Shown: in pieces, positions 92 to 10,465 of the stretch | Layout: the number at the start of each line of letters is the position of its first letter | Numbering within the stretch: the stretch's first letter is position 1 | Source of the DNA: Reichenbachiella agarivorans | GTDB lineage: Bacteria; Bacteroidota; Bacteroidia; Cytophagales; Cyclobacteriaceae | Reading direction: 5' to 3' | Length of the DNA stretch: 64,000 nucleotides | Assembly: GCF_025502585.1 (NCBI RefSeq) | Contig: NZ_CP106679.1 | Coordinates: 3,503,501-3,567,500 of the forward strand | The notes under the pieces: model-generated | What the model saw: the letters and a program-made list of their open reading frames with translations, nothing else | The model's database searches: none | Told to the model about the DNA's origin: nothing | Translations under genes and position numbers: made by a program

Positions 92-1749
92 ATTTACAAT
101 CCATATTTGACATCCCCGAGCTCTGCTACCAATATGGCGTGAGACAAGCTATAATCTCACCTGGATCACGCAATGCTGCTTTGACAGTGGCATTTGCGAG
201 ACATGCTGGTATTCGCTGTCTCAGCGTGCCAGACGAGCGTTCAGCTGCTTTTGTAGGATTGGGCATGTCATTGGCATCCAAGCAACCTACAGTGCTGATT
301 TGTACTTCTGGTTCTGCAGGTCTTAACTATGCCCCTGCTGTAGCAGAAGCCTATTTTAATCAAGTACCATTATTGATACTGACTGCTGATCGACCGCCAG
401 AACTGATCGGCAAGAGAGATGGACAAACAATCTATCAGTCGGCTCTATTCGGCAGACATGCCAAGGCATCTTTCGATTATCCCTCATTTGATCAGAACCT
501 CCAAACACAACATGCTTGTATGATTGAGGCTTTGAATAGTTGTATCGATGGTGCACCAGGCCCAGTACATGTGAATGTACCCTTTGCGGAGCCCTTCTAT
601 CCTGAGTCAGGAAAGATTTACACTGCGAGTCCCGACTTAATTGTAAAAAAGCCAACAAATAAGTCACTACCAGTTAAACTCCCAAAAGCACTCTCAACGT
701 TCCGAAAAATATTAGTTGTCATAGGACAACAGCCTAAGGATGACCAACTTTTGCAGGTACTGAGTCTGTTGAGTACCGATTGCCACATCCCCGTCATTGC
801 AGACGTCATTGGTAATTGTCACGGGCTAAAACCTCTCATCTCTCACCAAGATTTGATTCTGGTCAATCGTGATTCAAACCTGGCTCCTGATTTATTGATT
901 ACTTGTGGGCTGTCAGTAATTTCTAAAAATCTTAAACTCTTCTTGCGTGACAGTCCACACAGTACGCATTGGCATATCAGTACTCATGATGATGCCGCAG
1001 ACACTTATGATTGGAGCCCGTTGACCATTGACTCAGAGCCATTTGACATCTTTGAAACTATGGCTGATCAATTGACTGAAGAATCCATACCTCAGAAAGA
1101 ATACTTTACCCTTTGGCAATCCAAAGAGGCACGAGCCAAAATGGTGTTAAAAGAAGCAGATCGATCTACATGGACTGAAACCAGTATTTACCAAGAGGTG
1201 CTAGATCAATTGCCTACTGCCATTGACCTGCATCTCGCCAACAGCATGGCAGTGCGTTATGTCAACACTCTAGGGATTTCTTCTACCAAGGACATACAAG
1301 TGTACTGCAACCGTGGCACCAGCGGAATCGATGGCTCCAATAGTACTGCGGTAGGTGCCTGCATTGCTTCTAGTCGCGATACACTTCTATTGACGGGAGA
1401 CATGGCTTTTCTCTATGATAGAAATGCCTTCTGGCATAATCATATGCCAACCAACTTGAAAATCATTGTATTCAACAATCATGGAGGAGGAATTTTTAGG
1501 ATGATTGAGGGACCGTCGGCCCAACCTGAACTGAAGGAATTTTTTGAGACCGACCAGCGCTCCTCTGCCAGAAGTACAGCACGAGACTTTGGTTTTGCCT
1601 ATTTCACTGCCCGCAACATGCCAGAACTAAGGGAAACATTAGCCAGCTTCATGAATTTTCAAGATGGTCGCTCAATCTTGGAAATCTTCACAGATGCTGA
1701 AGAAAACACAACTGCCTACAAACAATTGTTCAAAAAGATGAAGGATTAA
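88..1749 (+). CDS. menD: SEPHCHC synthase (menaquinone synthesis)
   Basis: This is the thiamine-diphosphate enzyme that joins 2-oxoglutarate to isochorismate, giving 2-succinyl-5-enolpyruvyl-6-hydroxy-3-cyclohexene-1-carboxylate in the cytoplasm. At 553 residues it has normal length. The N-terminal pyrimidine-binding domain shows ISPGSRNAALTVAFA near residue 24 and CTSGSAGLNYAPAV near residue 72. The C-terminal diphosphate-binding motif runs from GDMAFLYDRNAF (about residue 437) to NNHGGGIF. The start overlaps the stop of the upstream gene, so the two are probably translationally coupled. menB follows 41 bases after the stop, making a menaquinone operon. Confidence 0.95.
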   Translation: MNLQSIFDIPELCYQYGVRQAIISPGSRNAALTVAFARHAGIRCLSVPDERSAAFVGLGMSLASKQPTVLICTSGSAGLNYAPAVAEAYFNQVPLLILTADRPPELIGKRDGQTIYQSALFGRHAKASFDYPSFDQNLQTQHACMIEALNSCIDGAPGPVHVNVPFAEPFYPESGKIYTASPDLIVKKPTNKSLPVKLPKALSTFRKILVVIGQQPKDDQLLQVLSLLSTDCHIPVIADVIGNCHGLKPLISHQDLILVNRDSNLAPDLLITCGLSVISKNLKLFLRDSPHSTHWHISTHDDAADTYDWSPLTIDSEPFDIFETMADQLTEESIPQKEYFTLWQSKEARAKMVLKEADRSTWTETSIYQEVLDQLPTAIDLHLANSMAVRYVNTLGISSTKDIQVYCNRGTSGIDGSNSTAVGACIASSRDTLLLTGDMAFLYDRNAFWHNHMPTNLKIIVFNNHGGGIFRMIEGPSAQPELKEFFETDQRSSARSTARDFGFAYFTARNMPELRETLASFMNFQDGRSILEIFTDAEENTTAYKQLFKKMKD

Positions 1750-4062: not shown

Positions 4063-4374
4063 TTACTCTTCAGTTTTCTTGGCTGCTTTTTTTGCAGGTG
4101 CCTTTTTCTCAGCAGCTGGTGCATCAGCAGTTTTCTTAGCGGCAGCTTTCTTTGGCTTCTCTTCAGCCACAACTGCTTCAGCTTTCACTTCTTCAGTTTT
4201 TTCAGCTTTAGCAGCCTTTGGTTTTGACGCAGCAGCGGCAAATTCAGCTTTCATTGCTTCTACATCAACTCCTTTTATTACTGGTTGTTTGCTCAATCTT
4301 TTGACGCTAGCCACTTTTTGTTTTGCAACAACTTTATTCCTTCTTCCTTTTCTTTTTAGTCTTGTTACAGCCAT
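4063..4374 (-). CDS. Small basic protein with Lys/Ala-rich histone-H1-like tail
   Basis: A 103-residue protein. The first 40 residues form a conserved-looking basic head (MAVTRLKRKGRRNKVVAKQK, then PVIKGVDVEAMKAEFAA). The rest is low complexity, built from K, A, E and P with KKAAAKK and KKAPAKKAAKK blocks like those of bacterial histone-H1-like proteins. Short proteins with this head and tail occur in Cytophagales but have no assigned role. A nucleic-acid-binding function is inferred from charge only. The gene is monocistronic and ends against a bidirectional terminator. Confidence 0.75.
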   Translation of the reverse strand: MAVTRLKRKGRRNKVVAKQKVASVKRLSKQPVIKGVDVEAMKAEFAAAASKPKAAKAEKTEEVKAEAVVAEEKPKKAAAKKTADAPAAEKKAPAKKAAKKTEE

Positions 4375-4521: not shown

Positions 4522-5631
4522 TTACGCATTTTCTGTAGACTCAGAACCATTCATGATGGCCGTCTGACGCTTGATCGAGTTGTTGTGAATCATCTCGTAC
4601 AAGTCATGTACAAATTGCTCTTGTAGTAGAAGACTCTTGCCTTTTGCTACTCTGTTTTCCATGATTTCTTCATATCTACCCACTTGCAAGATAGTGATGT
4701 TGTGCTCCTTCTTATGCATCGCTATTTCTTCAGCTACTTGCATCCTTTGCGCCATTACCTCTAGCAATTCATTGTCGATCTTGTCGATTTTACCTCTTAG
4801 ATTTTTCAATCTCAATTCAAAATCTACATCCTCAGAATTAGGTTCTCTGATGATCAATCTGTCAAGAATCCCAGCCAAAGTCTTTGGTGTGATTTGCTGT
4901 TTAGCATCACTCAAAGCATTGTCTGGATCGATGTGAGACTCGATCATCACACCATCCATTTGCAAGTCAAATGCCTTCTGTGAGATAGGCTCGATTAATG
5001 CTCTGTTGCCCGCGATATGACTTGGATCACATACCATTGGCAAGTTAGGGATCAACCTCTTCAACTCGATTGCGATCTCCCAAGTAGGATCGTTTCTGTA
5101 TTGTGAACCGCTCTTCGCAGAGAACCCTCTGTGGATTGCACCCAATTTGGTGATACCTGCTTGGTTGATTCTTTCCAATGCTCCTATCCACAACTGGATA
5201 TCTGGGTTGATTGGGTTTTTGACCAAGACTGGTACATCGTGTCCTTTCAAGGCATCAGCTACTTCTTGTACTGAGAATGGATTCACAGTAGTTCTAGCTC
5301 CTACCCAAAGTATGTCTACGTTGAATTTCAACGCCAACTCTACGTGCTCAGCATTAGCAACTTCTACAGCTGTCAAAAGTCCCGTTTCTTTCTTCGCTTT
5401 TTCCAACCATTTCAAACCTACCACACCAATTCCTTCAAAGGCTCCTGGTCTAGTTCTTGGTTTCCAAATACCTGCTCTCAATACCTGAATATTGGTATTG
5501 GCTTTGATCTGACGTGCTGTTTCTAATACTTGTTCTTCGCTCTCTGCGCTACATGGACCGCCGATGATTAACGGAGTGTTTAATCCTTCGATCCAGTTTT
5601 CGATCGGTGATAAAGTCAAATTAATTTTCAT
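4522..5631 (-). CDS. aroG: Bifunctional DAHP synthase / chorismate mutase
   Basis: A 369-residue fusion. Residues about 1-265 form a class I DAHP synthase of the short KDPG-type branch, with GGPCSAESEEQV, VLRAGIWKPRTRPGAFEGIG, KNPINPDIQLW, RGFS and CDPSHIAGNR. It condenses PEP and erythrose 4-phosphate. Residues about 275-360 form an AroQ-type chorismate mutase helix bundle (LRGKIDKIDNELLEVMAQRM, then EEIAMHKKEHN). The protein therefore links entry into the shikimate pathway with the branch to prephenate. It is the last gene of the operon, 105 bases after tyrA. The aroG symbol is by function; other names are used for this fusion. Confidence 0.93.
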   Translation of the reverse strand: MKINLTLSPIENWIEGLNTPLIIGGPCSAESEEQVLETARQIKANTNIQVLRAGIWKPRTRPGAFEGIGVVGLKWLEKAKKETGLLTAVEVANAEHVELALKFNVDILWVGARTTVNPFSVQEVADALKGHDVPVLVKNPINPDIQLWIGALERINQAGITKLGAIHRGFSAKSGSQYRNDPTWEIAIELKRLIPNLPMVCDPSHIAGNRALIEPISQKAFDLQMDGVMIESHIDPDNALSDAKQQITPKTLAGILDRLIIREPNSEDVDFELRLKNLRGKIDKIDNELLEVMAQRMQVAEEIAMHKKEHNITILQVGRYEEIMENRVAKGKSLLLQEQFVHDLYEMIHNNSIKRQTAIMNGSESTENA

Positions 5632-5736: not shown

Positions 5737-6627
5737 TTAAACTATTTCTTTAATGTGATTGTCATTTTTCTTTTTACTCTCTATTCCATTCAAGACCCTA
5801 CGGATCTCGTTGGCATTGTCCATACATGCGATCATGGCATCTTCTTCTCCTTGATCTAGCAAGGCTTTGAATGTTGCTAAATTATCTATATATGCACCCA
5901 GTGCTGTACTAATATGCTTTTTGTTTTGCTTGAATATAGGAGCCCACATCTGTGGTGAACTCTTTGCTAACCTGACAGTTGATGCAAACCCACTTCCTGC
6001 CAGATTGAATATATTTGCTTCGTTTTTTTCAATCTCCAATACCGTCTGTCCCAACACAAATGAGCTAATGTGAGAAATGTGAGAGACATAAGCGATATGT
6101 AAGTCATGAGACTTGCTTCCCATTTCAATCACATGCATACCCAACTGATCTAAGCATGACTTAGCCAACTCATAGGAAGAAACTTGCGACTCTTCCGCAT
6201 CACAGATAATTCCTGTTTTGCCCTCAAACAAAGTTGAGAAAGCGGCCTCTGGACCTGAATTTTCTGTACCAGCAATTGGATGAGCTGCTACAAAGTTCTT
6301 TCTGTTAGGATGTCCTTGTACTGCCAAACATATTTGTTCTTTGGTTGATCCCAAATCCATCACTGTCGTCTGATCGCTGATTTGACTGAGCAATGATGGC
6401 AGCAACTTGCTCATTCCATCTACTGGTATTGCCAAAATGATCAAATCGGATACACTTACCGCTTGCTGGTACGCAACCGCTTCATCCACCAAACCTAACT
6501 GTACCGCCTTTTGGGCATTCTCGTCGCTGAGATCTACCCCTAGAATCTGATCTGCAAAGCCTACTTCCCTAAGCCTTTTACCTACGGATCCTCCTATCAG
6601 TCCCAACCCTATAATTGATACGATCAT
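5737..6627 (-). CDS. tyrA: Prephenate dehydrogenase
   Basis: A 296-residue NAD(P)-dependent enzyme that makes 4-hydroxyphenylpyruvate from prephenate. It has an N-terminal Rossmann motif (IIGLGLIGGSVGKRL), VMDLGSTKEQI, and the conserved HPIAGTENSGPEAA segment of the family. Its ATG overlaps the stop of the aminotransferase gene by 4 bases, so it is part of the same transcript. No ACT domain is visible, so feedback control must lie elsewhere in the pathway. Confidence 0.93.
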   Translation of the reverse strand: MIVSIIGLGLIGGSVGKRLREVGFADQILGVDLSDENAQKAVQLGLVDEAVAYQQAVSVSDLIILAIPVDGMSKLLPSLLSQISDQTTVMDLGSTKEQICLAVQGHPNRKNFVAAHPIAGTENSGPEAAFSTLFEGKTGIICDAEESQVSSYELAKSCLDQLGMHVIEMGSKSHDLHIAYVSHISHISSFVLGQTVLEIEKNEANIFNLAGSGFASTVRLAKSSPQMWAPIFKQNKKHISTALGAYIDNLATFKALLDQGEEDAMIACMDNANEIRRVLNGIESKKKNDNHIKEIV

Positions 6628-7781
6628 GCTTTTACTGTTTCCAATCTATTGATCACTTTTTTCAACGCTTCCTGTGTCGAACACAAAGAAATCCTGATAT
6701 ACCCTTCTCCATTAGATCCGAAAATAGTTCCTGGAGTGATAAATACATGTCTTTCTTGAAGTATCTCATCTACGAATTCTTCACTCTGTCTACCCGATGG
6801 AATTCTGGCCCAAAGGAACATGCCTGACTGCTCTTCGTCATGTTTACAACCCAAAACATCCAGAATTTGTTCAGCCAATTTTCTTCTTTTGGCATATTCC
6901 TGATTGATAGAATCAAACCATGATCTGGGCAGACTCAAGGCTTTGACAGCTGCATCCTGAATCGGACGAAACATCCCAGAGTCTACATTGGATTTTACTC
7001 TCAATATCGCATCGATGTATTCTTTGCGACCACTGACCATACCCACTCTCCATCCAGCCATATTGAATGCCTTGCTCATGGAGTTTAACTCCAAACAATT
7101 TTCCATACTGCCTTCTACAGACAACATACTCAAAGGCTTTTCATTGAGAATAAAGCTGTATGGGTTGTCGTTCACGATCAAAATATCATGCTGACCTGCA
7201 AACTCAACCAAGCTCCTCAAAATTTCCTTGTTGGCTCTTTTGCCAGTGGGCATATTGGGGTAGTTCACCCACATCAACTTGGCAGCTTTTAGATCTGCCT
7301 TATCGATGGTACTGAATTTAGGCACCCATTCATTTTCTTCTTTCAGATCGTAAAACGCCACTTTAGCTCCCATCATTTCAGCAGCGGTCTTGTATGCTGG
7401 ATAGCCTGGATTAGGAATCAAAACAGTATCTCCAGGATTCAAAAATGCCATAGAAATATACATCACCCCCTCCTTAGAACCTAGCAAAGGCAGTACTTCA
7501 TTGGCAGGATCAACAGTCACACCATAGTGTGATTGGTAGAATCCAGCAATCGCCGATCTCAATTCTGGTATCGATCTATACGATTGATATGCATGGTTGG
7601 CTGTATTGCTCGCACTCTTAATTAATTCCTCAGCCACCTCTGGTGCTGGAGGCATGTCTGGGCTACCAATCCCAAGATTGATAACGTCTTTTCCTGATGC
7701 AACCATGGCTCTTATCTCGTCCAATTTTTTGGAGAAATAGTACTCTTGTACATCTGCTATTCTATCTGCTACCTTTATCAT
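6624..7781 (-). CDS. PLP-dependent aminotransferase of the phenylalanine/tyrosine operon
   Basis: A 385-residue fold type I class I/II aminotransferase. Visible features are NLGIGSPDMPPAP near the N-terminus, the PNPGYPAY segment, NDNPY, and the PLP lysine in SMSKAFNMAGWRVG. Sequence alone does not fix the substrate. Its position between pheA and tyrA, overlapping both, argues that it works on prephenate, phenylpyruvate or 4-hydroxyphenylpyruvate. It would then supply the transamination step of Phe and Tyr synthesis. LL-diaminopimelate aminotransferase-like annotation is the likely alternative by homology. Confidence 0.9.
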   Translation of the reverse strand: MIKVADRIADVQEYYFSKKLDEIRAMVASGKDVINLGIGSPDMPPAPEVAEELIKSASNTANHAYQSYRSIPELRSAIAGFYQSHYGVTVDPANEVLPLLGSKEGVMYISMAFLNPGDTVLIPNPGYPAYKTAAEMMGAKVAFYDLKEENEWVPKFSTIDKADLKAAKLMWVNYPNMPTGKRANKEILRSLVEFAGQHDILIVNDNPYSFILNEKPLSMLSVEGSMENCLELNSMSKAFNMAGWRVGMVSGRKEYIDAILRVKSNVDSGMFRPIQDAAVKALSLPRSWFDSINQEYAKRRKLAEQILDVLGCKHDEEQSGMFLWARIPSGRQSEEFVDEILQERHVFITPGTIFGSNGEGYIRISLCSTQEALKKVINRLETVKA

Positions 7782-8607
7782 AATCAGGCATTAAACCTTT
7801 TTCATATTCACCATGTATTTCTATCAGCTCCGAACTCTTAGCTATTTCCTTGAGTGATTGCTGGTACTCATCATAATCCTCCCAAGTCACATCGATATTG
7901 AATGCGTAGCGATAGGGTTGGCCCAAAACTGGCATAGACTGTATCTTGGTCAGGTTGATATTGTGCTCCTTAAACGCCACTAAAACATCAGACAATCTAC
8001 CTGGATCATGTTTGGTCATGACTCTCAATGATGCCTTTTCTGGCACTTTGGTCTGACCGTTCATACGACTTTTGATTATTAAAAATCGCGTATAATTTTG
8101 TTTATTGGTTTCGATATTCTCTTCCAAAATCGGCATATCAAACAACTGTGCTGCCTTTTTACTAGCGATCGCAGCAGCATTGGTCATATTTGACTCTTTG
8201 ATCAGCCGTACACTGTCTGCAGTATCTTCATATTCCGTCAGTTTCATATTAGGATACTGTGTCAAGAAATCCGAACACTGCAACAGCGCCATCGGATGGG
8301 AAAACACCTGATTGATGTCTTCCAATTTGACTCCTGCATGTGCGATCAAATTCATCTCTATCCTGATATATACCTCTCCGGTTACTTCTAAATCAAATTC
8401 CGAAATCAAAGCATAGTTTGGCAGGATGCTACCAGCTATTGTGTTTTCGATGGCCATCACGCCATAATCCAATTCTTTGGCCTGTATCGCTTTGGCCAAG
8501 GATCTAAAACTACTAAACGGCTTCAAATCCAAGTCATGCCCATTAAAATACTTGCTAGCTGCCTGATCGTGAAACGAACCTAAAACACCCTGAATTCCAA
8601 CCTCCAT
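7762..8607 (-). CDS. pheA: Prephenate dehydratase
   Basis: A 281-residue protein converting prephenate to phenylpyruvate. The N-terminal periplasmic-binding-like catalytic domain starts with GVLGSFHDQAA and contains the NYTRFLII (TRF) motif. The C-terminal ACT domain (about 190-275) starts SLRVMTKHDPGRLSDVL and carries IQSMPVLGQPYRYAF, the region that binds Phe in the family. It is the first gene of the operon and overlaps the aminotransferase by 20 bases. Upstream lies a Tyr/Phe-codon leader peptide and a terminator, so expression is probably controlled by attenuation. Confidence 0.95.
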   Translation of the reverse strand: MEVGIQGVLGSFHDQAASKYFNGHDLDLKPFSSFRSLAKAIQAKELDYGVMAIENTIAGSILPNYALISEFDLEVTGEVYIRIEMNLIAHAGVKLEDINQVFSHPMALLQCSDFLTQYPNMKLTEYEDTADSVRLIKESNMTNAAAIASKKAAQLFDMPILEENIETNKQNYTRFLIIKSRMNGQTKVPEKASLRVMTKHDPGRLSDVLVAFKEHNINLTKIQSMPVLGQPYRYAFNIDVTWEDYDEYQQSLKEIAKSSELIEIHGEYEKGLMPDYDKGSR

Positions 8608-8624: not shown

Positions 8625-8654
8625 AAAAAAAAACCCCGATGCTCTCGGGGTTTT
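8625..8654 (-). terminator. Attenuator terminator upstream of pheA
   Basis: On the minus strand, AAAACCCCGA, a five-base loop and TCGGGGTTTT form a strong hairpin followed by a run of U. It ends about 18 bases before the pheA ATG, so it stops transcription before the operon rather than after a gene. A competing segment in the leader ORF (GGGGTT, 8693-8688) is complementary to the 5' arm (AACCCC, 8652-8647). That is the arrangement expected for translation-coupled attenuation. Confidence 0.85.
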
Positions 8655-8678
8655 CATATTTCTTATCACTATAAAGAA

Positions 8679-8750
8679 CTATTCTTTAACCCCTGATGCC
8701 TCTGCATAGAAATAAAAATAATAGTTACGATATGCTTTTGATTTTTCCAT
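8679..8750 (-). CDS. Tyr/Phe-rich attenuation leader peptide of the pheA operon
   Basis: A 23-codon ORF from ATG (8750-8748) to TAG (8681-8679). Its core reads YRNYYFYFYA, so seven of nine consecutive codons from Y7 to Y15 are Tyr or Phe, with an unbroken run of six at positions 10-15. The next codons (GCA TCA GGG GTT) hold the GGGGTT that can pair with the 5' arm of the terminator at 8625-8654. Stalling at scarce Tyr or Phe would leave that segment free and prevent termination. Rapid passage to the stop codon would cover it and allow termination. No protein function is expected beyond its own translation. Confidence 0.85.
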   Translation of the reverse strand: MEKSKAYRNYYFYFYAEASGVKE

Positions 8751-8767
8751 TTGTGTATTTCGTACTC

Positions 8768-8798
8768 CAAAGGTGAAAATTGATTAAATAATATCAAA
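8768..8798 (-). promoter_or_regulatory. Candidate promoter of the pheA operon
   Basis: On the minus strand TTTG (8798-8795) and CACCTTTG (8775-8768) are 19 bases apart, matching the Bacteroidota TTG-N19-TAnnTTTG pattern except for C in place of T at the first position of the -7 element. Transcription would start just before the leader peptide ATG at 8750. Confidence 0.5.
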
Positions 8799-9586: not shown

Positions 9587-10228
9587 TCAAGGTGCTAATC
9601 GCTTGGATACCCAATGATCCTGGTTCCAACTATAGACAATGCGGTCATGCAATCTACTGGATCGACCTTGCCAAAATTCTACCTCAACAGGAATCAAAAG
9701 ATATCCTCCCCAAAAATCTGGCCTTGGGATGTCTGTAGGGAATTTCTCTCTTATTTGTTTTACTCTCTGTTCTAGAAATTCACGATTAGGTATTACTTGG
9801 CTTTGTGGCGATGCCCAAGCCCCTATCCTGCTACCTTCTGGCCTTTCTTGAAAATAGGCATCCGAAATCTCTGCGGGTACTTTTTCGATTTTACCTTTGA
9901 CCCGTACTTGTCGCTCCTTAGTTTTCCAATAAAAGGTCATTGAAGCATAAGGGTGTGAAGCCAATTGTTTGGCTTTATTGCTTTGATAATTGGTGTAAAA
10001 AGTAAAACCGTCGTCTGCATAGAATTTTAGCAAAACCACCCTACCCTCGGGATAGTTGTTTTCGTCCAAAGTTGACAGCACACATGCATTGACCTCACTC
10101 CCTTCGGTCTTGGCTGCATCCTTGAACCACAATTCAAATTGATCAATAGGGTTCTCCAAAATATTGGACTCTACTAGCTCTCCTATTCCGTAGTCTTTTC
10201 GGACTCCTTGTATATTTTCTTTCGCCAT
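9587..10228 (-). CDS. pdxH: Pyridoxine/pyridoxamine 5'-phosphate oxidase
   Basis: This FMN enzyme oxidises PNP or PMP to pyridoxal phosphate. I chose the start at 10228 (MAKENIQGVRKDYG), giving 213 residues as usual for the family; the open frame runs further upstream without recognisable sequence. Conserved parts are GRVVLLKFYADDGFTFYTNY, RQVRVKGKIEKVP, GSRIGAWASPQSQVI and the terminal FWQGRSSRLHDRIVY with W-VSKRLAP. It faces the preceding TPR gene tail to tail. Confidence 0.94.
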   Translation of the reverse strand: MAKENIQGVRKDYGIGELVESNILENPIDQFELWFKDAAKTEGSEVNACVLSTLDENNYPEGRVVLLKFYADDGFTFYTNYQSNKAKQLASHPYASMTFYWKTKERQVRVKGKIEKVPAEISDAYFQERPEGSRIGAWASPQSQVIPNREFLEQRVKQIREKFPTDIPRPDFWGGYLLIPVEVEFWQGRSSRLHDRIVYSWNQDHWVSKRLAP

Positions 10229-10465
10229 TGCCTTCGTTTCAATGTACTGCAAATATCCATTATTAATGGATGAATGAAAAATGCTGGAGATTTTCACTCC
10301 CTTACTTTTCGAATACAGTGATTCGCACCAAAACAACTGTTTTTTCAGCTATTTGATACCAAATCCCCTCAAATGAGCAGGGTGAATTTGATCGTCTCAT
10401 AGAAATAAATGAAATTGGAGGAGAATTTATACGGCAGAAAGGCCATGAACGTGCATTGATTAAAT

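Follow-up and report, generated by a model that had tools for sequence, protein, structure and literature searches.

A probable Tyr/Phe leader-peptide attenuator ahead of the pheA operon in Reichenbachiella agarivorans and its recurrence across Bacteroidia

The pheA operon of Reichenbachiella agarivorans is preceded by a short Tyr/Phe-rich leader ORF, a G-rich antiterminator strand, and an intrinsic terminator, and this arrangement extends beyond the Cytophagales to span the class Bacteroidia. We consider it very likely, from sequence comparison, that the element is a ribosome-mediated attenuator tuning the operon (pheA, an aminotransferase gene, tyrA, and a DAHP synthase/chorismate mutase gene) to the availability of charged tRNA-Tyr and tRNA-Phe. 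Features of the window, the whole 64-kb stretch of DNA analyzed here, are listed in Table 1.

In the proposed mechanism, transcription would begin just upstream of the leader ORF, with a ribosome trailing the polymerase. At a shortage of Tyr or Phe the ribosome would stall in the aromatic run with its leading edge just short of GGGGTT, and this segment would pair with the emerging AACCCC, such that no terminator forms and the operon is transcribed. With ample Tyr and Phe the ribosome would reach the stop codon, 12 nt past the start of GGGGTT, and cover that segment, and the terminator hairpin and its U-run would then stop transcription before pheA.

Leader region, operon genes, and RNA folding

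The intrinsic terminator lies between the leader ORF and the first structural gene, as judged from sequence and fold, and its 5' arm includes AACCCC (8652-8647), which is also the antiterminator partner in the window. A sequence-only reading of this DNA had already pointed to the 23-codon minus-strand ORF, the complementary GGGGTT and AACCCC segments, the hairpin with its T-run, and the TTTG-N19-CACCTTTG pair upstream of the leader, and the letters bear out the position of each; its distance of 18 bases between the terminator and the pheA ATG counts as 17, the ATG being at 8607. The 301-base leader region is present in one copy in a search of the whole genome.

Table 1. Coordinates of the leader, its regulatory segments, and the operon genes in the window, and of a tandem leader region elsewhere in the same genome (positions within L267)
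Feature	Coordinates	Strand	Description	Basis
Promoter-like pair	8768-8798	minus	TTTG (8798-8795), 19-base spacer, CACCTTTG (8775-8768)	
Leader ORF	8679-8750	minus	23 codons, ATG 8750, stop TAG 8681-8679, MEKSKAYRNYYFYFYAEASGVKE then stop	direct sequence reading
Regulatory codon run	8706-8732	minus	TAT CGT AAC TAT TAT TTT TAT TTC TAT (Y-R-N-Y-Y-F-Y-F-Y)	
Antiterminator 5' strand	8688-8696	minus	TCAGGGGTT, core GGGGTT 8693-8688	
Intrinsic terminator	8625-8654	minus	AAAACCCCGA / TCGGGGTTTT hairpin and T-run	sequence, fold
pheA	7762-8607	minus	prephenate dehydratase	PDT PF00800, 192.6 bits; ACT domain under cut-off
Aminotransferase gene	6624-7781	minus	class I/II aminotransferase	PF00155
tyrA	5737-6627	minus	prephenate dehydrogenase	PF02153, PF20463; NCBIfam NF006307 above cut-off
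DAHP synthase gene	4522-5631	minus	DAHP synthase fused to chorismate mutase type II	PF00793, PF01817
L267 first leader	167-235			
L267 first terminator	262-290			
L267 second leader	282-380			
L267 second terminator	405-434			

The promoter-like pair is of the Bacteroidota -33/-7 type, with the first -7 base deviating from TAnnTTTG. Leader and terminator units before pheA in relatives (133 in all) were cut to 85 non-redundant units by shared 6-mers, and 41 of these 85 have an exact TAnnTTTG in the 60 nt ahead of the leader start (shuffled mean, 4.3), compared with 1/85 in a control region from -160 to -100 of the same units. The window pair is a putative promoter, from which transcription would start near the leader ATG.

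The four-gene operon of the sequence-only reading is found downstream of the leader, and by the identities of its genes it makes both Phe and Tyr, matching the codons in the runs. For the aminotransferase the nearest NCBIfam models are LL-diaminopimelate aminotransferases, under cut-off, and its position among these genes suggests a role in Tyr/Phe synthesis. Among 40 relatives fetched, the DAHP synthase gene is on the same strand downstream of pheA in 38, and all four operon genes are present in 31; in two loci (L273 and L276, of genomes G113 and G148) the DAHP synthase gene is upstream of pheA and first in the operon. We also note a 103-aa Lys/Ala-rich ORF (4063-4374, minus strand) after the DAHP synthase gene, with no Pfam match at E <= 0.001, and a chorismate-binding domain match in the stretch preceding the window (L260) that runs to just inside the window start (1-52).

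Folding gives the two predicted RNA states in the window. An RNA ending inside the terminator loop pairs GGGGUU with AACCCC at -14.2 kcal/mol, an energy that is ordinary for its composition (z -1.66 for 69 nt, equaled by 12/200 shuffles; z -0.31 for 118 nt). Once the RNA includes the 3' arm, this pairing gives way to the terminator, and the 55-nt piece folds at -17.5 kcal/mol (z -4.15, equaled by 0/200 shuffles). The duplex of the antiterminator with its own terminator arm reaches -11.0 kcal/mol, and, counted from the first base of the final Tyr codon, this best pairing begins at 12 nt; in an 87-nt fold, a local hairpin takes in part of the GGGG. The mutual exclusion of the GGGGTT/AACCCC structure and the terminator had been proposed from the letters, with co-folding as a check, and the folds agree with it, yielding the antiterminator without the 3' arm and the terminator with it.

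Arm pairing, ribosome spacing, and amino acids in the run

The antiterminator and the terminator co-vary among relatives. For the 85 units we took the best duplex between the region after the run and the terminator 5' arm; own arms average -15.2 kcal/mol, compared with -10.45 for swapped arms (5,000 permutations, z -15.9) and -7.7 for shuffled regions, and 69/85 units pair better than all 20 of their own shuffles.

The position of the antiterminator follows the end of the run more closely than it follows the stop codon. Counted from the first base of the final aromatic codon, it starts at 12 nt (IQR 11-14) across the 85 units, and relative to the stop codon it starts at -13 with a wider spread (IQR -20 to -8; Brown-Forsythe p = 1e-13). 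The distance from the last aromatic codon is 7 to 16 nt in 75/85 antiterminators, compared with 25% of shuffled ones, and where the stop comes soon after the run the antiterminator follows the stop codon and keeps much the same spacing from the run (11 nt in L039 and 14 nt in L142). A stalled ribosome has its leading edge some 12 nt from the codon in its A site, and by this geometry a ribosome halted at the final aromatic codon would leave the antiterminator just uncovered. Once its A site holds the stop codon, a ribosome would touch the antiterminator in 80/85 units, with no touch in the other five, under assumed footprint limits. The G-rich antiterminator is unable to encode Phe or Tyr, and codon content is insufficient to explain the spacing because about three extra non-aromatic codons are included that coding does not require.

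A protector (1:2) hairpin is part of the textbook trp design and is not universal among attenuators. The corresponding pairing averages -5.86 kcal/mol for the 85 units, -5.41 for shuffled and -4.76 for swapped sequences; own pairing is better than swapped (z -6.0), but only 6/85 units are 3 kcal/mol more stable than the mean of their shuffles. A general third hairpin is not clearly supported.

The earlier suggestion that mixed codons would sense both end products is in keeping with the composition of the runs, in that Phe and Tyr occur together in 85/85 non-redundant runs, Phe making up 44.8% and Tyr 35.5% of run residues. The final Phe codon and the final Tyr codon are 1 to 3 codons apart in 80/85, and a shortage of either amino acid would therefore be expected to stall the ribosome at a useful place. 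Tryptophan may be read as well. Six of the seven other leaders from the genus have TGG (Trp) at the position of CGT (Arg) in the window, and some leaders hold Trp inside the aromatic run. Trp accounts for 18/145 of the residues interrupting runs defined by F and Y only, compared with 14/1016 of non-F/Y residues outside them, an over-representation that is suggestive of Trp sensing. Such sensing is plausible because Trp interrupts the runs and the operon includes DAHP synthase, which serves all three aromatic amino acids.

Distribution in Bacteroidia and units in series

A PheA search of 39 genomes, including that of the window, finds an aromatic-rich leader and terminator before pheA in 8/8 genomes of the genus, again with the window included. 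The sequence-only reading had held that absence of the run or terminator from close relatives would count against it, and had proposed looking in related genomes; the opposite of absence is found, and Tyr/Phe runs with terminators precede pheA in both close and distant relatives. A unit is present in 12/15 loci with the same PheA type, the window and the rest of its genus included, four of them outside the genus (L012, L013, L014, and L016); the other three, from relatives in the same family (L010, L011, and L015), have none within 450 nt of pheA or in the 1.7 to 3.7 kb scanned further upstream. Loci coding for fused chorismate mutase-PheA proteins have a unit in 0/15 over about 1,500 nt upstream (with G012 left out). 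L113 is a duplicate of L013 and was dropped from the occurrence counts, and a first "unit" in L139 (GTG start, five aromatics) appears to be false.

Two wider samples give a similar picture. Among 80 named contigs, which are the best PheA matches to the query and thus an uneven sample, 72 have a unit before pheA and 8 lack a scored unit; their names include Cyclobacteriaceae, Hymenobacter, Pedobacter, Mucilaginibacter, Sphingobacterium, Flavobacteriaceae, and Bacteroidales, together with a few labels from outside the phylum. In a phylum-wide sample, a script finds the unit in 45/50 genomes of the same class or closer, leaving out four with a weak PheA (G034, G050, G132, and G245). The five misses include two loci (L160 and L161) in which the leader is present and the hairpin, overlong for the script, is recognized by eye, and three loci of one genus (L308-L310) in which a leader and terminator are about 3.6 kb upstream of pheA, which comes after the EPSP synthase gene; the order in L308 is leader, terminator, DAHP synthase/chorismate mutase, 3-dehydroquinate synthase, EPSP synthase, and pheA. 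Among 45 hand-picked loci from other classes, with each family in the matches listed represented at least once, 4 have a unit, and the PheA of each of these is near the class type (E about 1e-98 to 1e-108). The parts of the leader that recur among distant relatives are the aromatic run and the tail coding for the antiterminator.

Several contigs or genomes placed outside the class (L042, labeled Legionellaceae; L074, labeled KSB1; L126; and L165-L167) have a class-type pheA with a leader, and these may be misbinned or transferred.

Some lineages have two leader and terminator units in series. Among 28 Hymenobacter-type loci, 21 have two units and 7 have one; these comprise 25 loci of one genus together with L016, L150, and Hymenobacter mucosus L096, and the genus name is assigned from similarity for all but L096. 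A looser fold rule is behind the first units of L016, L210, and L212 and the second unit of L220. In family f20, 10 of the 21 loci have two units, 10 have one, and 1 has none. Two units also precede pheA in L058, a contig named as a Bacteroides MAG. Phe and Tyr are present in both units of tandem loci. The survey of tandem units covered L016, L096, L150, and L209-L234; L236-L252; and L058, with L211 and L235 excluded as cut by contig ends.

The R. agarivorans genome has leaders rich in other amino acids too. In L267 (Table 1), two Ile/Val-rich leaders, MKRIIVIALTIVAVVTVAMDRE and MTLFYCPNNKDIKVITIIDILTIVTVAVLYSC, are in series before a gene for a class IV aminotransferase and ilvD, a putative tandem attenuator of the branched-chain operon. 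Each leader has its own terminator, and the antiterminators (-16.4 and -14.3 kcal/mol) start 13 and 16 nt, respectively, from the final Ile/Val codon. The second leader has its ATG inside the first terminator, and an alternative GTG start at 321 is possible. A His leader (HHHH; MKTNKQHHHHTMNAQAR) is at -310 to -256 relative to the HisG match in L257, with its terminator at -226 and an antiterminator of -14.0 kcal/mol starting 15 nt from the last His codon. A Trp leader (WWW; MTNKNMAWWWIISNQK) and terminator, at about -739 to -635, precede a 479-aa chorismate-binding trpE-like gene in L258, and this unit has a weak antiterminator (-4.0 kcal/mol) by the test used for the pheA units. No Thr leader and no convincing Leu-type leader before HMGL-domain genes was found in the stretches of this genome scanned. 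The terminator before one homoserine dehydrogenase gene belongs with a SAM riboswitch (RF00162, 77.9 bits; L261 2557-2661, minus strand).

We somewhat favor a history in which a single ancestral Tyr/Phe attenuator, reading two or three aromatic amino acids, was kept across Bacteroidia, whose ribosomes do not use Shine-Dalgarno recognition, and became a double unit in series in at least two lineages, with the Ile/Val leaders of the R. agarivorans genome doubled likewise. If so, polymerase in the double-unit lineages would have to clear two Tyr/Phe checkpoints, and the control would cover an operon holding the entry enzyme of the entire aromatic pathway.

Alternative explanations and known systems

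The attenuator reading was weighed against four others. The aromatic run could be a chance outcome of T/A-rich DNA adjoining a terminator, TTT and TAT being frequent words in A+T-rich sequence. Yet when 190 pheA upstream regions were dinucleotide shuffled five times each, a unit with at least 5 aromatics in 10 residues arose in 6/950 shuffles, compared with 133/190 observed, and one with at least 7 in 0/950, compared with 126/190; the pattern also persists in Hymenobacter-type units, which have GC-rich terminators, and antiterminators pair more strongly with the terminator arm of their own unit than with swapped arms. A scan of both strands of the 64-kb window in 450-nt steps for at least 6 aromatic residues in 10 followed by a terminator gave two units, the pheA leader and a TTG-started ORF (9848-9943, plus strand) antisense inside ORF 9587-10336, the second of which is probably chance. 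Chance origin of the pheA unit is ruled out by the shuffles, the window-wide scan, and the own-arm pairing, and we accord it a vanishingly small probability. A functional small protein, with the terminator simply ending its own transcript, is most improbable. It would account for the conservation of the leader as an ORF and the promoter-like box upstream; however, the part recurring outside the run is the antiterminator-coding stretch that co-varies with the terminator arm, leader length varies from 15 to 40 residues among the leaders listed, and in one genus the unit heads an operon with another gene order, at about 3.6 kb from pheA.

Two further possibilities concern how the amino acids would be sensed. 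The nascent Tyr/Phe-rich peptide might itself arrest the ribosome in response to free Phe or Tyr near the exit tunnel, in a TnaC-like manner with the same RNA switch, and the RNA anatomy is compatible with any cause of stalling near the end of the run. TnaC-type arrest requires fixed residues, but the leaders retain aromatic content rather than particular residues; in pairwise comparison of the last 8 run codons of 27 related leaders, 863/1390 codon changes are aromatic to aromatic, 250 are synonymous, and 277 are other. The HHHH, WWW, and Ile/Val-rich leaders before hisG, the chorismate-binding gene, and ilvD likewise match a codon-reading model, and we regard peptide arrest as unlikely. Riboswitches and T-boxes regulate amino acid genes in other bacteria, and a SAM riboswitch is present before the homoserine dehydrogenase gene of the same genome, raising the possibility of direct amino acid or tRNA sensing by such an element, with the short ORF incidental. 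We find this scarcely credible: the only Rfam element in the window at gathering score is a tRNA, and none reaches gathering score in 13 relatives scanned at E <= 1. The rows for these relatives fall in leader-peptide families in 6/11 cases, and 5 are unrelated sRNAs; the best scores, all below threshold, are 39.5 bits for Phe_leader (cut-off 55), 37.0 for Thr_leader (cut-off 55), and 25.7 for Trp_leader (cut-off 41). A riboswitch or T-box identity was accordingly rejected, with no such Rfam match in the window at gathering scores and nothing at gathering in the 13 relatives.

Ribosome-mediated attenuation of pheA is itself a known kind of control. Leader-peptide attenuation is textbook for Proteobacteria, and the Escherichia coli pheA leader (pheL, RF01859), which is a Phe-only leader, resembles the element described here in its short ORF of regulatory codons, its competition between antiterminator and terminator, and its target gene. 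It differs in that Bacteroidia runs mix Tyr and Phe, the operon adds tyrA and DAHP synthase, the phylum is another one, and the protector hairpin is unclear; the highest Phe_leader scores (39.5 bits in L012 and 38.9 in L104) do not reach the cut-off, and the window has no match at gathering. The Bacteroid-trp motif (RF01692), which we take to contain Trp-codon ORFs, has no match in the window, in the pheA loci of the 13 relatives (E <= 1), or at gathering in five loci of the R. agarivorans genome, including that of the trpE-like gene. A 2004 survey of attenuation reportedly includes Bacteroidetes/Chlorobi in its scope. Bacteroid-trp is a Bacteroidetes cis-regulatory element, with a name that points to trp genes (PMC2864571).

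Two other surveys place leader-peptide attenuation chiefly in Proteobacteria, along with a few further groups (PMC2965389, PMC3766115), and one of these, from 2013, proposes that amino acid attenuators may stem from gamma-proteobacteria, with few transfers (PMC3766115). In Bacteroides thetaiotaomicron, a map reports long 5' UTRs with short ORFs in them that are "reminiscent of leader peptides" (PMC7366714). Closest to our case, a 2021 study of Flavobacterium psychrophilum reports 5' elements before pheA and hisG that are kept in other Flavobacteriaceae genera and have no Rfam hits, and "strong clues" for leader-peptide attenuation before amino acid operons (PMC9723704). This element precedes the same gene in the same bacterial class as the element in the window and very probably belongs to the same family, and its place and kind were therefore already noticed; the section of the study concerned does not name a peptide or the amino acids sensed, and it does not describe how the antiterminator is spaced, whether the element occurs beyond the Flavobacteriaceae, or any tandem units (PMC9723704). 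In the literature searched, with subscription journals mostly outside it, we found no description of a class-wide Tyr/Phe family, of its fixed geometry, or of tandem amino acid attenuators of this kind, and the class-wide reach, fixed spacing, and tandem form exceed what we found in print.

The putative attenuator thus accompanies a single biosynthetic operon almost invariably throughout a large class whose ribosomes are reported to lack Shine-Dalgarno recognition (PMC9976891). Its class-wide presence in this setting implies that leader initiation would have to be early enough, and the ribosome close enough behind the polymerase, for the switch to work, a claim about transcription-translation coupling in Bacteroidia that lends itself to direct testing. 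The constant 12-nt spacing also provides a sequence signature by which more attenuators could be found.

Attenuators based on short ORFs are also in series in the Salmonella mgtCBR leader, as in the double units of the relatives, although the two members of the mgtCBR pair answer different signals, ATP and proline (PMC3641672). In the relatives, by comparison, both units are Tyr/Phe rich and each has its own terminator, and the pheA leader in the window is single.
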